Positions 50,328 to 59,037 of a stretch of DNA of 64,000 nt are shown here, piece by piece. Origin of the DNA: Rhodothermales bacterium (GTDB lineage Bacteria; Bacteroidota; Rhodothermia; Rhodothermales; Bin80); NCBI GenBank assembly GCA_951812585.1, contig OX638318.1:2292380-2356379 (forward strand), read 5' to 3'. The translations under genes were made by a program, and so were the position numbers. The first letter of the stretch is position 1. Each line of letters starts with the position of its first letter. Under the pieces are notes generated by a model. It was not told where the DNA came from. It made no database searches and saw only the letters and a program-made list of their open reading frames with translations.

Positions 50328-50732
50328 CTATGGCCCGAGGGGCCACCGGTCGCCGAACCGTCTGTCGCCGAGTTGCCTGCGATGTGCAGTTCTGTGGGTA
50401 TGCTCAATCTGATCCGCTGCCCAAGGGCTGAGGCGCGCTCCATGGATCGGCGGTTGCCGCCGGGCACAGCCAGGCAGCGCTTCAGGCCGGATCTCTGGGT
50501 CGCAAGGCGACGATGGAGCGACATGCCGCATCACCCGGTGGTCATCCAGCGTGATGACCACCGGCGCGGCGTACAGGGCGGGCGGGGCCCCTGTAGGGCA
50601 TTCAATCAGGAGCACCGGCACTTGCGCGGCGCTGAAGGCGCGCACTTCTTGAGCAGCGAATGCCAGGTGAATACCCCGCCCCGCGGTAAGGCAAAACAAC
50701 AGGATTACAAGGACGCTTAACCTGAACTTCAT
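50328..50732 (-). CDS. Secreted-protein gene split by the IS element, now starting inside the IS end
   Basis: The frame reads MKFR then LSVLVILLFCLTAGRG, a signal/transmembrane segment, and about 110 further residues without a recognised domain; the last 40 are Arg/His-rich and may be past a frameshift. The ATG and the first 11 bases come from the IS terminal repeat (50722-50732). In the uninterrupted sequence the same frame continues at 59037, beyond the other end of the composite element, as MTMRSQPPPPQSNLSRALS. The current reading frame is therefore a chimera whose original N-terminus has been replaced. Function unknown. Confidence 0.55.
   Translation of the reverse strand: MKFRLSVLVILLFCLTAGRGIHLAFAAQEVRAFSAAQVPVLLIECPTGAPPALYAAPVVITLDDHRVMRHVAPSSPCDPEIRPEALPGCARRQPPIHGARLSPWAADQIEHTHRTAHRRQLGDRRFGDRWPLGP
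50716..50721. repeat. Left target-site duplication of composite element
   Basis: CTTAAC directly precedes the left IS end. The identical 6 bp directly follows the right end of IS copy 2 (58982-58987). No such duplication flanks copy 1 on its own, because its right end is followed by ACTAGA. Confidence 0.85.
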
Positions 50733-50927
50733 AGTAGTCGGGCGCAGCCTCACCCTCGCGGCGCAGTCAGTAGCCCATTTTGGCACCTTTTTCAGTCGTT
50801 ATTGGGCCGATTTGGGCACAAATGGCTCTGAAAGTCGGGTTTTCGCCGTGATTTGAGGTGATTGTCACCCTGCTGGGTTCGTTACCTGACTGCCCATGTA
50901 TCGTTAGATCACGGTGAACCACGAAAC

Positions 50928-50951
50928 GGCATTATTTGCGGGAATAATGCC
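50928..50951. terminator. Perfect hairpin in the IS left end
   Basis: GGCATTATT and AATAATGCC form a 9-bp perfect stem with a 6-nt loop, followed by a T-rich stretch (ATTATTTTCGCCTTTTCTTG). By position it would block outside transcription from entering the transposase gene, a known self-protection device of insertion sequences. This role is inferred. Confidence 0.5.
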
Positions 50952-51028
50952 ATTATTTTCGCCTTTTCTTGCATATATCGCGCCCATTGCGTCCCTTAAG
51001 GGCATACGAAATCACGTCATATCTGCCC

Positions 51029-52770
51029 CTGTACATAGCACGTATTCCGCACCGGAACTCGAGCCCCACGTGGCTGCTGCGACAGTCCACCTGGAAGAAC
51101 GGCAAGAGCGTGAAAACCACCCTCAGCAACCTGACCAAGGTGCCGCACGAGTTCAGAATGCAAATCCGAGCGCTGTGCAGGGGTGGGTGGCATTGTTGTG
51201 CGCGACGTGCTGGGGTATTTCAGGGAAGTGTACCTGAGCGCGCAAAGCGCGCCACACGGACCTGTGGCCGCTACGCTGGGGACCCTGCGCAAGCTGAAAC
51301 GCGATCAGCTCATCAGCGCGCGCACCCCGCGGGTGCGTACCATCGTGCTGGCCCTCCTTGTCCGTCGCATCCTTAACCCCGGCAGCAAGTATACCACCGC
51401 CAGCGCGCTTCGGGCGGAAGACCAGCCCCGCAGCCTGGGAGGGGAGCTCGCACTGGAGCACGTGCACGAGAACGCGATCTACCAGGCCATGGATTGGCTC
51501 TACAAGCGCAAGGACGCCATTGAACAGGAGCTCGCAGCCCGTCATCTGAAGGAGGGATCGGTCGTGCTCTGTGACGTCCCATCCCCGTACGTAGTGGGCC
51601 ACGGCGCCGATCTGGCTGCATTCGGCTACGCCAGAGACAAGAAGAAGGGCACCAAGCAGATCCACTTCGGTCTGCTCTGCGACAAGGCCGGCCGGTGGGG
51701 GTGGAGGTATTTTCGGGCAATACGGCCGATCCCGCCACGCTTACTGCGCAGCTGCAGAAGCGCAAGGAGCGTTTTGGCCTGCGCCGGGTCACGATTGTAG
51801 GAGATCGCGGACTGCTGACGCCTGCGCGGCTCACCGAAGCAGTGCAGCCGGCCGGCTATGACTGGATCACCGGCCTGCGCCAGGGCGCCCTCCGTCGCCT
51901 GGTGCAGAAAGAGGACTGCCCGTTGACGCTGTTTGACGAGAGGGATCTCGCGGAGATCACCAGCGACGACTATCCCGGCGAGCGGCTCATTGTGTGCCGC
52001 AACCCGCTGATGGCCGCGCGTGCAAGGAATAAACGCGCGGCATGGCTCCAGGCTACGGAAAAGAAGCTGGACGCACTGATGGCGGCCACCGTGCGCAAGC
52101 GGAGGCCGCTCCGGGGCACGGACAAGATTGCCCTGCGCGCAGGCGCCCTCCTGGGCCGCTACAAAATGCAGAAGCACATCACTACGGTCATCTCTGACGA
52201 AGCCTTCAGCTACCCGCGCGACGAAGCATCCATAGCGCTGGAAGCCCGTCTGGACGGCATGTACGCGATTCGCACCAATGTGACCGAGGACGCGCTCGCA
52301 TCCGACGAGGCCGTCGCTTCCTACAAGCAGCGGGCGGTAGTGGCAAAGGCCTTCCGCAGTCTCAAGACCGTTGATCTGAAGGGGCGCCCCATCTACCACG
52401 ATCGGGCCCGCCGCATCCAGTGCCCCTCTTCCTGTGTATGCTGGCCTATTACGTACAGTGGCACATGAAAGACAAGCTGGCCCCCATGCTGTTCGCAGAG
52501 GAGGATCTGGCGGCGGCCAAGGCGGCCCGTGCCAGCGTGGTGGCGCCGGCGGAACCCTCCCCGGAAGCACAAAGCAAGGCACGAACCAAAAAGACCAGCG
52601 ACGGCGCTCGCGCCACCAGCTTCCAGTCGCTGCTGCGCCACCTGGCTCAGCTGGGCAAGTGCAAGCTGGTAGAGAAGAACAAGCCTGAGGAGACGATCAG
52701 GCTGGTGCTGCAGACGCTAAGCCCCAAGCAAAAGAAGGCCTTTAGGCTGCTCGGCGTAAGCCACCACTAG
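51029..52770 (+). pseudogene. IS1634-family transposase, copy 1, inactivated
   Basis: The N-terminus reads YIARIPHRNSSPTWLLRQS, the family start, but from a CTG rather than ATG. The frame shifts near 51180, where MQIRALCRGG passes into VVRDVLGYFREV of another frame. Compared with copy 2 there is a 4-bp deletion (one CCGG unit) near 51694 and a single-C deletion near 52425. The catalytic Glu of DDE is Ala (VVAKAFRSLK against VVEKAFRSLK in copy 2). The remaining domains (NPGSKYTTASALRA, VVLCDVPSPYVVG, VGDRGLL, HMKDKLAPMLF) are clear. It cannot make an active transposase. Confidence 0.85.
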
Positions 52771-52856
52771 GCGGGCCGACAGCGCAGCCAGCCAGCGGCA
52801 CTAGTCGCAAATTCCACAAAATCCAAGCGCCTTATTGGTCCCCTTGCCGGGTACAA

Positions 52857-52871
52857 TACTATGAAGTTCAG
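52857..52871. repeat. Right terminal inverted repeat of IS copy 1
   Basis: TACTATGAAGTTCAG is the inverse of the left end at 50722-50736 and identical to the right end of copy 2 at 58967-58981. It includes an outward-facing ATG AAG TTC. Confidence 0.85.
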
Positions 52872-53229
52872 ACTAGAAACAACAAACAAGGAAAAACCGC
52901 TCCCGCCCACCCTGTTTGTTGTTGTTCCGACGGAAAAATCACATCCTTTTTGCTCCCCCAGCGTCGGCGCTGGCGCCGCCCAAATGGACACGAACGAGGC
53001 TGCGCATACGACAGCTGCGCGACTGAAAACACTATTAGCACCACACCCCGCCACACGACTAACGGCGTCATTTGTGGCGATTCTGAGGTACAGGGCTGAA
53101 AACGGCGCCATACGGCCTGTAGGAGCCGCGTAGAGCCGCTCTGACGCGGGTTCGTAGTTATTATTACCCAAAACGGGGCGTTGTATGCTACAGACTCCCC
53201 CCCCCCCGGCATACAGGTGGACCAGCCGC
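52872..53229. other. Left part of cargo; possible IS-started reading frame and a C11 tract
   Basis: About 360 bases. Starting at the ATG inside the IS right end (52861), a 90-codon frame runs to 53133 (MKFRLETTNKEKPLPPTLF...). Its product has no recognised domain, so it may be fortuitous. A run of 11 C lies at 53197-53207, a likely slippage and assembly weak point. Confidence 0.4.
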
Positions 53230-54369
53230 CTAGTACGGAAACTCGTAGCGCAATATGTACGGATGGCGATGTGACGATACATACAGGTGGCGGTCATAGA
53301 CCATTGCCCTGTTGGATGTCTTGAGGATGTTGTCGTTGTCCGATGTATCCATGGTTGTGCTCAGAAGAACCGTGCCCACATGCTTGTAGCGATCGCTACC
53401 ACTAATCCGGATGAAGTACCACCGTCCGCTGTTAGGGCTGACCGGAACAGCTATGTACTCGTTATTCAGCACATGAAAAACCGAAATTAAAAAGCGTAAT
53501 CCCACCCCCGGCATACCAGGCCGCTCCATTTTGTAATTGCCTGCATGCTCCTTAATTGAAGTGCCATGGAATCTTATGGTATGAACATGCTGATGATTGT
53601 CGTCGAATACAAAGACATAGGGCAAGCCTACGTAGACTGCAAATACAAATTGATCCTCTGGCGTAGCCCCAACCGCAACGAGATTCATCGGTGGTTGTGT
53701 GATGCCCAGCGAAGGTAGAAATGGTTTGGTCGCTTCATAGGGCGCCTCTGTTTCCCGCGGGCAAACCCGAAACTCATGCGTCATTGGACACGGAGCATAT
53801 AGGTACGTGGCACTTGCTGACAGGCCCGCGCCACGAAGCATGCTGGAACCCAGACGGGCTGGCGTTGTGGCCACATATTCAAGGCGGGTGGATAAGACCT
53901 GTAGGCGAGATCTTTCGCTGGCAAACAAGTGCGGCTCAACATAAACCAGGCTGGAGAGTCCATCGAACTCGAGAGGAGCCTTTCCCTCTCGGCCGACCCT
54001 CCTGCGCAGCAAGCCGTCCAGTCCACTCACAAAAATGGCGTTTGCCTGAGCGTCAGCAACGTAAAGGCTGTCCTGCACAATGGTAAACCTGAAGAAGTTG
54101 CCTAGCACCAGGGAGTCCCGCATCTGCCCCAACTCCAGATTGGGATGCCACACCTGTTCGGGTAAGGCATCCACATCTATCACCGTCTGGGGTACAGCGG
54201 CCAGCAGTGAGTCGATGATCTCCGACTCTATGATTCGCACGAAATCGGGAGATTGACGACAGCCCCCCGCCGAAGCGAGGAGCATCGCCAACAGTATTAC
54301 TCTTGTGTCGAAGAGCTTGGCCACCGTACGCGAATCTTCGCAGCTAGCTGAACTTGGGTAACGTGCCAT
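53230..54369 (-). CDS. 6-bladed beta-propeller lipoprotein
   Basis: The product has 379 residues. An N-terminal stretch (VILLAMLLASAGGC) ends in a lipobox-like Cys near residue 37. A beta-rich chain follows, of the 6-bladed propeller type seen in Bacteroidota next to small secreted peptides. Indicators are FFRFTIVQDSLYVADAQANAIFVSG, LRRRVGREGKAPLEFDGLSS and YVFVFDDNHQHVHTIRF. The true start may be an internal Met before LLASAGGC. It is preceded 28 bp upstream by a small Cys-containing secreted peptide in the same direction. It lies inside the composite element. Confidence 0.75.
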   Translation of the reverse strand: MARYPSSASCEDSRTVAKLFDTRVILLAMLLASAGGCRQSPDFVRIIESEIIDSLLAAVPQTVIDVDALPEQVWHPNLELGQMRDSLVLGNFFRFTIVQDSLYVADAQANAIFVSGLDGLLRRRVGREGKAPLEFDGLSSLVYVEPHLFASERSRLQVLSTRLEYVATTPARLGSSMLRGAGLSASATYLYAPCPMTHEFRVCPRETEAPYEATKPFLPSLGITQPPMNLVAVGATPEDQFVFAVYVGLPYVFVFDDNHQHVHTIRFHGTSIKEHAGNYKMERPGMPGVGLRFLISVFHVLNNEYIAVPVSPNSGRWYFIRISGSDRYKHVGTVLLSTTMDTSDNDNILKTSNRAMVYDRHLYVSSHRHPYILRYEFPY

Positions 54370-54397
54370 GCTCTTGTAGTGCTACCGACAAACCTTA

Positions 54398-54646
54398 TCA
54401 GCCACCTCCGAACTCGACACCGCAGATGGTACCCGTCCATGTACCGGATCCGGACCATGCCCCCTCTTCTTCGCCATCACAGTTTATGGTCAACGTCCAG
54501 CCGTCCTCGGATTGATCTAGTTCTGTAACACAATCCCCGTTGTCGCATCTAAAGAAGTACTCAGGAGCTGCAGCCACCGCTACATACGCTATAGCGCCGG
54601 TCAAGGCCAGGGCGAGTGGTAAAACGATCTTTTTGAGAGATCTCAT
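54398..54646 (-). CDS. Small Cys-containing secreted peptide
   Basis: The 82-residue product has a signal (MRSLKKIVLPLALALTGAIA, then YVAVAAAPEYFF). The mature part has four Cys (FRCDNGDCVTE, TINCDGE, TICGVE) and ends EFGGG. The acidic, Trp/Gly-rich core (WTLTINCDGEEEGAWSGSGT) looks like a compact beta fold. Gene order (small peptide, then propeller lipoprotein) resembles the NVEALA peptide/beta-propeller pairs of Bacteroidales, although the NVEALA motif itself is absent. A surface or signalling role is only a guess. Confidence 0.65.
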   Translation of the reverse strand: MRSLKKIVLPLALALTGAIAYVAVAAAPEYFFRCDNGDCVTELDQSEDGWTLTINCDGEEEGAWSGSGTWTGTICGVEFGGG

Positions 54647-54650
54647 AGTG

Positions 54651-55456
54651 CTACCTCCGTAAAATTAGTGAGGCCCCAAAGATAGCTGATGTTCTCCCAA
54701 ATACAAGTGGCTTCGTCAAATATTCGTATTGCCCGGAAAGTGTGCTGCCGGGCCCGCCTCGAGCTCCATCGGGCCACTGGCTACGTGAGGTACTTCGCGA
54801 CGGCGCCTCCGGCCGGCCACTCCGGGCGTTTGCTGATTGTCCCACTGGCCGCTTCCCCTCGCGCGCGCGAGGGAGTCGCACCACCACTTCAGTGGTGTTT
54901 GTGTCTAAGGCAGCCTTAAGGCTGATGTGTATGTTGTATTTAATTAAACTTAGCTTGAAAAAAGTAGCTTCTGAACCAGCTGCCGTTTTGATTATGATAG
55001 CTTCTTCTACCGCCACTAAAGATTCAACTATATTAGACACCGTTTGACGGACATCATTTTGATCTTCTGGGACATTATATGAGATTTGATAACCTTGATC
55101 TTTGTTTTGAGAAAGAATGTTTAGTACCAATTCTTGGTTGTTATCTAAAACAAAGATCTCTAGGGTCCTGGGTAGGTTATCGGGGTTGGTGTTGGTGATA
55201 ACCAGCTCTTGGTCTTGATTAAATAGTGGTTCGGTATCTTTTTGCAAGAATTGCAAGAGTTGTGAAGGGCTAGCGTCATTTGGTCCAGTGGTATTGATTT
55301 CATCAGCTGGTAGTTTAGAGGTTGGTTCTGAAGAGATGTAGTAGTTGGGGGTGTTTGATTTGTTAACTAGTAGCAGGTAGATGGTGATAACAAGGATAAC
55401 AAATAGACCAAGGAGGAAAGTTAGTAATTTAACCGAAGATTTTTTTTAGTTGACAT
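54651..55456 (-). pseudogene. AT-rich membrane-anchored protein of foreign type, frameshifted and 3'-fused
   Basis: From ATG 55456 the frame begins MSTKK. After a run of eight A (plus-strand T 55440-55447) the continuing sequence is in another frame: SSVKLLTFLLGLFVILVITI, a transmembrane anchor, then an Asn/Thr/Gln-rich extracellular part (SKLPADEINTTGPNDASPSQ, DQGYQISYNVPEDQNDV). One base more in the A-run would restore it. The AT-rich protein ends near DTNTTEVVV; after the palindromic repeat at 54855-54877 the frame runs on through GC-rich DNA and is probably not natural. Composition resembles Patescibacteria-type proteins. Function unknown. Confidence 0.5.
54855..54877. repeat. Palindromic direct repeat, left copy
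   Basis: CCCCTCGCGCGCGCGAGGGAGTC. The core CCCTCGCGCGCGCGAGGG is a perfect palindrome. The same 23 bp occur in the same orientation at 57008-57030, bracketing the AT-rich island. Confidence 0.8.
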
Positions 55457-55805
55457 ATGACTTAAAATTATACTTTTATAATACCACACATGTCTAGATT
55501 TACCTGTGGATTATCCCAGTTTAAGCAAGTACAAAAAAGAGCCCAACCCTATGGTAGCGGTTGAGCTCTGGAGCTATCCCCTAGGGGTAGCTCACGGGTC
55601 GCGGTCCGAAACGATCTTCGAACCACTTGCATCTCTCTGACTGTCAGGAGAAACACAGGTCGGGCACGTTTGCTGGCTCGTTTACCCTGATCCACATCTC
55701 ATAGAAAACGGCTATGGCTTCGTGTGGGCGATCCTGATAATAACTAGAGTTGTCTATCCGCGGCACAATAAGCCCCGCGGTTGTGTCAGCGTCAGTGGCT
55801 GCCTC
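55457..55805. other. AT-rich intergenic region with terminator and hairpin
   Basis: About 350 bases between two minus-strand genes of the island. It includes the terminator at 55533-55569 and a second stem AGCTATCCCCTAGGGGTAGCT at 55573-55593. The AT-rich 55457-55500 stretch probably holds the promoter for the downstream gene (TATAATA-like on the plus strand). No gene seen. Confidence 0.45.
55533..55569 (-). terminator. Rho-independent terminator
   Basis: Read on the minus strand, AGAGCTCAACC pairs with GGTTGGGCTCT (loop of 10, one internal mismatch) and is followed by TTTTTT. It lies downstream of the 55806-56885 gene and should end its transcript. Confidence 0.75.
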
Positions 55806-56885
55806 CTAATCTAGTCCGTCTTGGGTAAGAACCCAATCGCGGCCAATCTGAGAACAACGACCGCTCTCAATGGTTTCATCCTGATGAGCGTGGAAGAGTT
55901 CGTGCTCTAGTATACGGAGCATCAGTCTTCGGTCAGATTTCTTGCGAACAATGATCTGTCTACATCCATACGCCCCCCCAACACCATCTGGCAGCAAACC
56001 CGTCGGGTCTCCCCAGTTTAGCACTAGTCCCGCTGGTAGACTCAGTCTAGCAAAGCTGCCAGCCGACTCTGATGGCCACTCGTGTGGCAAACGAACGCCA
56101 CCTCCGTCGTAGACTTCCTCCTCTTGGGTAATAAATCCCGTCTTCTGGACTTCAACAGACAATGGTTGAAAGCCGGTTAGAGTGGCCTTGCCTTGAGGGT
56201 CTGTGATGGCTGTCTGTCCTTCCGGATCACATCTTTCGAGACAGGTCACCGTCACTCCTTCAATGCCTACCCATTCGGGGGACCCTCCTACTGGGTATAC
56301 CGTAATGGTGATGGCTTCTGTCTCCGGCTTAAGAGCGACAGTGTCTCCGTTTGAGACTTCTCGCTCTGTTGTCACGTATCCGTATTTTTCAACCCGGATA
56401 GTTATTGCTGGCTGGATGCCACCCAAGACAGCTTCGCCACTGGCGTTGGTTGTCTCAACCTGCTGGCCTTCACAGCCTTTGAGACAGGTTAGCTTGGCTC
56501 CCCCTAGCGGGTCGGTGCTGAGGCTGTCCACCACCATAATGGTAATGGACTCCACCTTTGGTTTCTCTGTCTGGAGAACAATAATGTCTCCATTGTATAC
56601 CTTTTTTTCAACACTTTCGTATTCGGATTTTTCAACCCGAATGGTCAGGGGTTCGAAGCCGGTCAGAGTTACCCGACCGAGTTCGTCTGTCGTCTCGATC
56701 TGTTCTCTGGTGCAATCCTCGAGACAGGTTACTTTCGCCCCTTCTAGGGGCGATGAGTTGGTTGCCATCACCGTGATGGCAACCTCTTTAGGTGTTGCTG
56801 GTTCTGGAGCGATAGGATTACTATCGTAACTAACCAACAACGTGGCAGCTAACAATGCAGCGGCCGAAGCTTTAAGATTTACCAT
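55806..56885 (-). CDS. Exported triple CarboxypepD_reg-like protein with C-terminal HExxH
   Basis: The product has 359 residues. The N-terminal signal (LKASAAALLAATLLVS) would be a lipobox except that Tyr (TAC) stands where Cys is expected. Three homologous beta domains follow (about 35-105, 112-185, 190-275). Each has a Cys pair (VTCLEDC, LTCLKGC, VTCLERC) and a TLTGFEPLTIRVEKSEYE-type strand, resembling carboxypeptidase-regulatory/PEGA domains. The C-terminal 80 residues contain LEHELFHAHQDE, an HExxH zinc-peptidase motif. Base composition is distinctly lower in GC than the host genes. Overall architecture is unfamiliar to me. Confidence 0.7.
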   Translation of the reverse strand: MVNLKASAAALLAATLLVSYDSNPIAPEPATPKEVAITVMATNSSPLEGAKVTCLEDCTREQIETTDELGRVTLTGFEPLTIRVEKSEYESVEKKVYNGDIIVLQTEKPKVESITIMVVDSLSTDPLGGAKLTCLKGCEGQQVETTNASGEAVLGGIQPAITIRVEKYGYVTTEREVSNGDTVALKPETEAITITVYPVGGSPEWVGIEGVTVTCLERCDPEGQTAITDPQGKATLTGFQPLSVEVQKTGFITQEEEVYDGGGVRLPHEWPSESAGSFARLSLPAGLVLNWGDPTGLLPDGVGGAYGCRQIIVRKKSDRRLMLRILEHELFHAHQDETIESGRCSQIGRDWVLTQDGLD

Positions 56886-57007
56886 CGTTTCCTCCGTTGT
56901 GTTGTGGTTGTGAAAGAACTGACTCTGCTACTGCAGAGACGCTTATATTATAAACATAAATAGTCTGATTTGTCAATGTGTGGTGTTGAAAAACACCGAA
57001 AACGCTC

Positions 57008-57030
57008 CCCCTCGCGCGCGCGAGGGAGTC
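57008..57030. repeat. Palindromic direct repeat, right copy
   Basis: This is identical to 54855-54877 over 23 bp (CCCCTCGCGCGCGCGAGGGAGTC) and in the same orientation. It marks the right edge of the AT-rich island. Confidence 0.8.
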
Positions 57031-57395
57031 CCTGCCGTTCGTAATCCCGCTGCGGGAGCGGGTCCGGGTGAAATGAGGCCGGGGGGGGGGCGCTCGCACG
57101 CCCCCCGGAAACCGCGCATGTCGGACCGCCTGTCTGAAGTCTCGCTTCAATGAGGCCGGGGCTCTGCAGCCCCGGAAGCCGGCGGTGTTGCGATGCTGTT
57201 TATCCCCGCAAGAGCGGGGGAGTCGCCGCTCGGCCGGCCGCCTCTCATTCGCGGCTGGATCAGAATACACCGGCGCGTCGAAAGAAGGTCCGCGCCGGAC
57301 TGATTCACTACGGAAGCCGATGTACACGGTTGTACGACTCTTCAGGCGGGGGCACCCTCAGGGAACCCCCGCCTTCATCCACCGTAATCGGGAGC
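57031..57395. repeat. Cluster of GC-rich hairpin repeats (CRISPR/REP-like), no array
   Basis: Several short inverted repeats are packed into 365 bp. AATGAGGCCGGGG...CCCCGGAA occurs twice, at 57072-57110 and 57149-57177. TTTATCCCCGC-AAGA-GCGGGGGAGTC at 57199-57224 is very like a reversed type I-E CRISPR repeat. AGGCGGGGG/CCCCCGCCT form a stem at 57344-57374. The 3' motif GGGAGTC is shared with the palindromic repeats. A G10 run lies at 57081-57090. Spacing is irregular, so this is not a CRISPR array. Relics of arrays or REP-type elements are possible. Confidence 0.55.
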
Positions 57396-58881
57396 AAGCT
57401 AAAACGCGATCAGCTCATCAGCGCGCGCACCCCGCGGGTGCGTACCATCGTGCTGGCCCTCCTTGTCCGTCGCATCCTCAACCCCGGCAGCAAGTATGCC
57501 AGCGCCAGTGCGCTTCGGGCGGAAGCCCAGCCCCGCAGCCTGGGAGGGGAGCTCGCACTGGCGCACGTGCACGAGAACGCGATCTACCAGGCCATGGATT
57601 GGCTCTACAAGCGCAAGGACGCCATTGAACAGGAGCTCGCAGCCCGTCATCTGAAGGAGGGATCGGTCGTGCTCTGTGACGTCCCATCCCCGTACGTAGT
57701 GGGCCACGGCGCCGATCTGGCTGCATTCGGCTACTGCAGAGACAAGAAGAAGGGCACCAAGCAGATCCACTTCGGTCTGCTCTGCGACAAGGCCGGCCGG
57801 CCGGTGGGGGTGGAGGTGTTTTCGGGCAATACGGCCGATCCCGCTACGCTTACTGCGCAGCTGCAGAAGCGAAAGGAGCGTTTTGGCCTGCGCCGGGTCA
57901 CGATTGTAGGAGACCGCGGACTGCTGACGCATGCGCGGCTCACCGAAGCAGTGCAGCCGGCCGGCTATGACTGGATCACCGGCCTGCGCCAGGGCGCCCT
58001 CCGTCGCCTGGTGCAGAAAGAGGACCGCCCGCTGACGCTGTTTGACGAGAGGGATCTCGCGGAGATCACCAGCGACGACTATCCCGGCGAGCGGCGCATC
58101 GTGTGCCGCAACCCACTGATGGCCGCGCGTGCAAAGAATAAACGCGCGGCATGGCTCCAGGCTACGGAAAAGAAGCTGGACACACTGGTGGCGGCCGCCG
58201 TGCGCAAGCGGAGACCGCTACGGGGCACGGACAAGATTGCCCTGCGCGCAGGCGCCCTCCTGGGCCGCTACAAAATGCAGAAGCACATCACTACGGTCAT
58301 CTCTGACGAAGCCTTCAGCTACCCGCGCGACGAAGCATCCATAGCGCTGGAAGCCCGTCTGGACGGCATGTACGCGATTCGCACCAATGTGACCGAGGAC
58401 GCGCTCGCATCCGACGAGGCCGTCGCTTCCTACAAGCAGCGGGCGGTAGTGGAAAAGGCCTTCCGCAGCCTCAAGACCGTTGATCTGAAGGGGCGCCCCA
58501 TCTACCACGATCGGGCCCGCCGCATCCAGTGCCCCCTCTTCCTGTGTATGCTGGCCTATTACGTACAGTGGCACATGAAAGACAAGCTGGCCCCCATGCT
58601 GTTCGCGGAGGAGGATCTGGCGGCGGCCAAGGCGGGCCGTGCCAGCGTGGTGGTGCCGGCGAAGCCCTCCCCGGAGGCGCAAAGCAAGGCACGAACCAAA
58701 AAGACCAGCGACGGCGCTCGCGCCACCAGCTTCCAGTCGCTGCTGAGCCACCTGGCTCAGCTGGGCAAGTGCAAGCTGGTAGAGAAGAACAAGCCTGAGG
58801 AGGCGGTCAGGCTGGTGCTGCAGACGCTAAGTCCCAAGCAAAAGAAGGCCTTCAGGCTGCTCGGCGTAAGCCACCACTAGG
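57396..58881 (+). pseudogene. IS1634-family transposase, copy 2, 5'-truncated
   Basis: The frame is open without interruption from before the homology start (57396) to TAG at 58878-58880. It contains LKRDQLISARTPRVRTIV, VVLCDVPSPYVVG (first Asp), TIVGDRGLLT (second Asp), VVEKAFRSLKTVDLKG (Glu) and LCMLAYYVQWHMKDKLA. The first roughly 90 residues present in copy 1 (YIARIPHRN... to LGTL) are replaced by unrelated sequence. An ATG at 57150 lies in frame but its extension is not homologous. DDE is intact but the N-terminal DNA-binding part and left IS end are missing, so activity is unlikely. Confidence 0.8.
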
Positions 58882-58981
58882 CGGGCCGACAGCGCAGCCA
58901 GCCAGCGGCACTAGTCGCAAATTCCACAAAATCCAAGCGCCTTCTAGGCCCTCTCGCCGGGCAAAGTACTATGAAGTTCAG
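57396..58981 (+). mobile_element. IS1634-like insertion sequence, copy 2 (left end missing)
   Basis: It is homologous to copy 1 from 51291 onward with few substitutions, including the 100-bp non-coding tail. It ends in TACTATGAAGTTCAG (58967-58981), followed by the target duplication CTTAAC. Confidence 0.82.
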
Positions 58982-58987
58982 CTTAAC
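58982..58987. repeat. Right target-site duplication of composite element
   Basis: CTTAAC, identical to 50716-50721. Confidence 0.85.
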
Positions 58988-59037
58988 GCTCGGCTCAAGT
59001 TGGACTGCGGAGGGGGCGGTTGGCTACGCATAGTCAT
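58988..59037 (-). pseudogene. Severed 5' end of the IS-interrupted secreted-protein gene
   Basis: On the minus strand, ATG at 59037 starts MTMRSQPPPPQSNLSRA. The frame crosses the CTTAAC duplication and, once the composite element is removed, continues exactly in frame into the LSVLVILLFC signal segment at 50715 and below. The current genomic frame instead enters IS copy 2. A second Met two codons in is an alternative start. Confidence 0.65.

Follow-up and report, generated by a model that had tools for sequence, protein, structure and literature searches.

The stretch of DNA analyzed here, a 64,000-nucleotide window (C1:2292380-2356379 of a single-contig 3.2-Mb genome; positions without a prefix are those of the window), carries an 8260-bp unit at 50722-58981, within a small ORF beside hisF that is probably a gene relic. 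We class the unit as a degenerate composite transposon from a known family; as an insertion it is well marked but ordinary. We consider it probable that this IS1634-family composite-type transposon inserted as a whole and was degraded later. Its boundaries and IS copies were read from the sequence as follows.

50716-50721, no strand: left copy of the target duplication, CTTAAC
50722-50736, plus strand: outer left terminal inverted end, CTGAACTTCATAGTA
50722-52871, plus strand: complete IS copy 1 (2150 bp), both ends present
52857-52871, plus strand: inner right terminal end of copy 1, perfect, followed by ACTAGA (52872-52877)
57394-58981, plus strand: IS copy 2, 1588 bp, corresponding to IS positions 568-2150
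58967-58981, plus strand: outer right terminal inverted end, TACTATGAAGTTCAG
58982-58987, no strand: right copy of the target duplication, CTTAAC

The two outer ends, CTGAACTTCATAGTA and TACTATGAAGTTCAG, are exact reverse complements and form perfect 15-bp inverted ends, with CTTAAC directly outside both. The inverted repeats and the perfect duplication of the original prediction were thus borne out, with correct coordinates. The duplication lies outside the whole unit, and none is present at the inner ends. Copy 1 was predicted to have no target duplication of its own on the right, and the hexamer found there is indeed ACTAGA, not CTTAAC.

Both IS copies that bound the passenger are of one kind, and copy 2 is partial. 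When aligned, as had been proposed, they were 97% identical over 1588 bp, with 1.58 kb in common. They lie in direct orientation, as predicted, but are unequal: copy 2 lacks its first 567 bp and with them the left end, while copy 1 is frameshifted and, as judged below, gene-converted. The transposase frame of copy 2 is otherwise open up to a stop at 58880; that of copy 1 is broken, relative to copy 2, by a 4-bp and a 1-bp deletion, both of which also occur in another genomic copy of the IS, L002. About 10 of the differing positions lie in the final 69 bp, beyond the clear conversion tract, and the right end of copy 1 is of a different subtype from that of copy 2. The transposase matched the IS1634 family model NF033559 (curated cut-off, 100 bits) with 286.7 bits (E 4e-85) for copy 2 and 156.8 bits (E 9e-46) for a fragment of copy 1, in agreement with the predicted IS1634-like nature of the element. 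The ends, CTGAACTT, and the 6-bp duplications (CTTAAC for the unit, TCCTGA for L002) also accord with this family. No intact transposase of the unit's IS was found in the genome: copy 1, L002 and a further full-length copy, L003, are frameshifted, and copy 2 lacks the 5' part. A more distant IS1634 member (C1:521170-522708) contains one in-frame stop. Since neither copy of the pair encodes an intact transposase, the composite is degenerate and not autonomous.

There are 17 matches to copy 1 in the genome. L002 (C1:282537-284681) is a simple insertion; as it too duplicates 6 bp, a 6-bp repeat is the element's own footprint. When 5 left ends were compared with 9 right ends, identical 6-bp flanks occurred in only two pairings, one between the outer ends of the unit (copy 1 left, copy 2 right) and one between the two ends of L002; the number of identical pairs expected by chance is about 0.01 (45 pairs / 4096). 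The hexamers at 12 IS ends follow the pattern N-Y-T-A-R-N, which CTTAAC and ACTAGA both fit, and the IS seems to prefer YTAR targets. An uninterrupted ACTAGA was found in a paralogous stretch (L178, C1:1428140-1428361), which reads ...CATGAC-ACTAGA-AACAAC.... With CTTAAC on the left and ACTAGA on the right, the ends of copy 1 derive from separate insertion targets; copy 1 is therefore not a simple insertion, and the earlier assignment of the duplication to the whole unit is supported.

L003 (C1:1896050-1898195) has unmatched flanks, CTACAA and ATTAGA, and hence it too has lost or exchanged one side. It was considered as part of a second composite and rejected: its flanks share no hexamer and no other end pairs with it. 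Three 149-bp left ends of the unit's IS, 4.4 and 6.8 kb apart in identical contexts and each flanked by TCTAAT, lie within C1:2846000-2865000 (L182); their arrangement points to a triplicated block.

Copy 1 is itself a mosaic, most of which is identical to L002.

51108-52802, plus strand: 1695-bp stretch of copy 1 identical to L002 in sequence, a putative gene-conversion tract

The identity covers IS positions 387-2081, including the frame-breaking 4-bp and 1-bp deletions, whereas the first 386 bp differ by about 14%, at 57 alignment columns. Differences between L002 and L003 are spread evenly throughout (~3-5%); between copy 1 and L003, the divergence is ~14% in the left part and ~3% beyond it. 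This pattern is read most simply as gene conversion with L002 as donor and copy 1 as recipient, and homologous exchange between IS copies at the locus is strongly indicated by these comparisons.

The locus is empty in relatives. In a genome of the same family (G005), brxA (bacilliredoxin) is preceded by greA and an NlpC/P60 gene and followed by a 153-aa minus-strand ORF, whose N-terminal part has a membrane segment, and then by hisF. The brxA-hisF spacing is 758 bp there, versus 764 bp in the window after 8266 bp, the unit plus one CTTAAC (50722-58987), are removed. In a genome of the same genus (G001), contig C192 starts within the C terminus of brxA and carries hisF at 397-1152; the two genes are side by side, ~0.3 kb apart, with no IS and no passenger. 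Because brxA and hisF are neighbors in both genomes, the unit is an addition. The closest hisF matches among named records are mostly from Rhodothermia. The search for an uninterrupted homologue in relatives found the flanks adjacent, as the prediction needed, but no sequence similarity to the G005 ORF at the same place. Homology between that ORF and the split one was rejected (no BLASTP match; shuffled z about -1), though position and length agree. When the rebuilt site was compared base by base with G001 and G005, alignment was obtained for the genes but not for the intergenic stretch, which is too diverged, so that the exact base of insertion cannot be placed in either genome.

The ORF that the unit interrupts lies on the minus strand, in two parts.

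50328-50721, minus strand: 3' part of the interrupted ORF, a signal segment and a region like the N terminus of a secreted amidohydrolase (probable relic)
58988-59037, minus strand: 5' part of the interrupted ORF, MTMRSQPPPPQSNLSRA

Removal of 50722-58987 joins MTMRSQPPPPQSNLSRA in frame to LSVLVILLFC, as predicted, and yields a 147-aa ORF that reads MTMRSQPPPPQSNLSRALSVLVILLFC.... The middle of this ORF is similar to a secreted amidohydrolase at the N-terminal end, as far as the HxH metal motif region (36% with the G001 protein over 66 residues); for each of four relatives, the score was reached by 0/2000 shuffles. An intact 541-aa amidohydrolase homologue is encoded elsewhere in the genome (C1:894205-895806). 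Judged by this likeness, the interrupted ORF is probably a relic or short derivative of the N terminus of a secreted amidohydrolase. The unit did enter a pre-existing ORF, while the secreted-protein gene that the original prediction described as split is probably a short relic. That prediction also held frame continuity across the join to be hard to explain without an insertion. This was not supported: an open frame arises in this region in 70% of trials for 17 codons and in 37% for 53 codons, and because 17 codons stay open by chance so often, the in-frame join is weak evidence. The case for insertion is carried by the target duplication and synteny, not by the frame. On the minus strand, the outer left IS end provides the split ORF with an in-frame ATG (50732-50730), and the remnant ORF that includes the IS end spans 50328-50786/50798. 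As the IS end reads TACTATGAAGTTCAG outward, the remnant would keep this ATG (50732) and a predicted signal-like N terminus, MKFRLSVLVILLFC.

Between the IS copies lies a passenger with a G+C content of ~36-58% for most of its length, versus ~62% outside.

52872-57393, no strand: passenger between the IS copies, 4522 bp
53230-54369, minus strand: 379-aa propeller-like ORF, with weak sub-threshold similarity to 6-bladed beta-propeller proteins
54398-54646, minus strand: 82-aa small secreted-type protein, duplicated together with the propeller-like gene
55806-56885, minus strand: 359-aa protein with three carboxypeptidase-regulatory-like (PF13620) repeats

The propeller-like gene and the 82-aa peptide gene have a 93% DNA paralogue at C1:1429582-1431192; apart from this match to a part of it, the passenger is absent from the rest of the genome. 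The 359-aa protein was not found among 38 related genomes, and searches for the unit at another site or in another strain gave none. A plasmid origin was considered and dropped, there being no plasmid match; neither phage protein families nor replication genes were recognized in the passenger.

Considering these data together, a single transposition of the whole unit is the likely event. The transposon would have run from the copy 1 left end through 4.5 kb of passenger to the copy 2 right end; a transposase acting on the two outer ends would have carried it, in one step, into the small ORF (the secreted amidohydrolase relic) between brxA and hisF, with duplication of 6 bp of a YTAR-type target, CTTAAC. 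Transposase would have been supplied at the time of insertion, perhaps by copy 1 before conversion by the frameshifted L002 disarmed it. The perfect 15-bp outer ends and the 6-bp duplication around the whole unit speak for this course of events, and Tn6097 (below) is a precedent. Against it, the present structure is not self-mobile (copy 2 lacks a left end and copy 1 an intact transposase), the passenger was found between IS copies nowhere else, and the empty site cannot be aligned base by base in relatives. The unit now looks immobile unless transposase acts in trans. An elaboration that we regard as rather doubtful is that conversion from L002 after landing, by disarming the copy 1 transposase, fixed the foreign passenger in place, and that, in addition, what is left of the split gene is exported and has gained a new start codon and N terminus (MKFR...) from the IS end.

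Direct copies with 1.58 kb in common are also a signature of Campbell-type integration. A single IS could have inserted at CTTAAC and later recombined with a circle or other molecule bearing the passenger and a 5'-truncated IS; a crossover in the shared 1.58 kb would leave a full and a truncated IS, in direct orientation on either side of the passenger and flanked by the old duplication. This two-step course, which we hold to be possible though unlikely, predicts the direct orientation and the duplicated 568-2150 segment that are found, and it gains from the different subtypes of the two right ends and from the IS-IS exchange so strongly indicated at the locus by the 1695-bp identity of copy 1 and L002. 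However, it requires an extrachromosomal passenger molecule, of which there is no trace, and no other truncated IS copy in the genome adjoins the passenger; any stretch in which a crossover could be recognized has been overwritten by the conversion tract. A replicative cointegrate, in which the IS of a donor replicon entered CTTAAC to give two direct copies around donor DNA, followed by loss of the copy 2 left end and of some donor DNA, would account for the direct orientation and for the donor target ACTAGA inside. We find it highly improbable: twin copies should be near identical, whereas these differ by 3%, with those ~10 positions in the last 69 bp lying outside the clear conversion tract; no replication genes are recognized in the passenger; and IS4-type transposases usually act by cut-and-paste. 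The odds are slimmer still that two chimeric joins inside the IS placed the passenger there during assembly. IS copies are classic places for misjoins and the base composition of the passenger, with its 36% G+C stretch, is unusual, but the genome is a single 3.2-Mb contig, dozens of sites distinguish the two copies, the rest of the genome has nothing of the passenger save for the partial 93% paralogue, and both joins would have had to leave a proper duplication outside.

Whole-unit transposition has been proven for Tn6097 of Paracoccus ferrooxidans, a 17.8-kb element with two identical, convergent copies of ISPfe2 (IS1634 family) that was captured transposing with 6-bp repeats (PMC3281130). 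In both elements, IS1634-family copies surround unrelated DNA with 6-bp repeats outside the whole, and in both a single IS makes 6-bp repeats as well. Unlike those of Tn6097, the copies here are direct and share 97% identity; one has been truncated and the other frameshifted, and transposition is deduced from the sequence. Members of the IS1634 family (formerly IS1549) have ends of the form C-----YT and 5-6 bp AT-rich duplications, though long variable repeats of 8-514 bp have been reported for IS1634 and IS1549 themselves (PMC2266710). The IS studied here resembles the family in its NF033559 match, its length of 2150 bp, its ends and its 6-bp duplication, and differs from IS1634 and IS1549 in that the unit and L002 both have repeats of 6 bp. 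With degenerate or pseudo-composite IS structures the unit shares a passenger between unequal IS copies, one of them partial, but here a clean duplication is kept around the outside. Although the principle is textbook, the unit shows clearly, in a lineage related to Rhodothermia that has been little studied, how an IS pair brings unrelated DNA into a conserved gene neighborhood and is afterwards worn down by truncation and gene conversion, and it yields a testable reconstruction of the empty site.

Some further features of the passenger were observed. The stretch at 54900-55560, with ~36-40% G+C in surroundings of 62%, contains an open minus-strand frame in which no family was recognized, and its origin may be foreign. 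At 54850-54877 and again at 57003-57030 lies a 28-bp palindromic repeat (CCCTCGCGCGCGCGAGGGAGTC core), present nowhere else in the genome by similarity search. A lone CRISPR-type direct repeat (57144-57180, minus strand; Rfam CRISPR-DR16, 41.1 bits, cut-off 35), with two matches at a distance of 72 bp in a related genome (G029), is surrounded by a run of hairpins at ~57003-57375 (fold z -3.3, minus strand).
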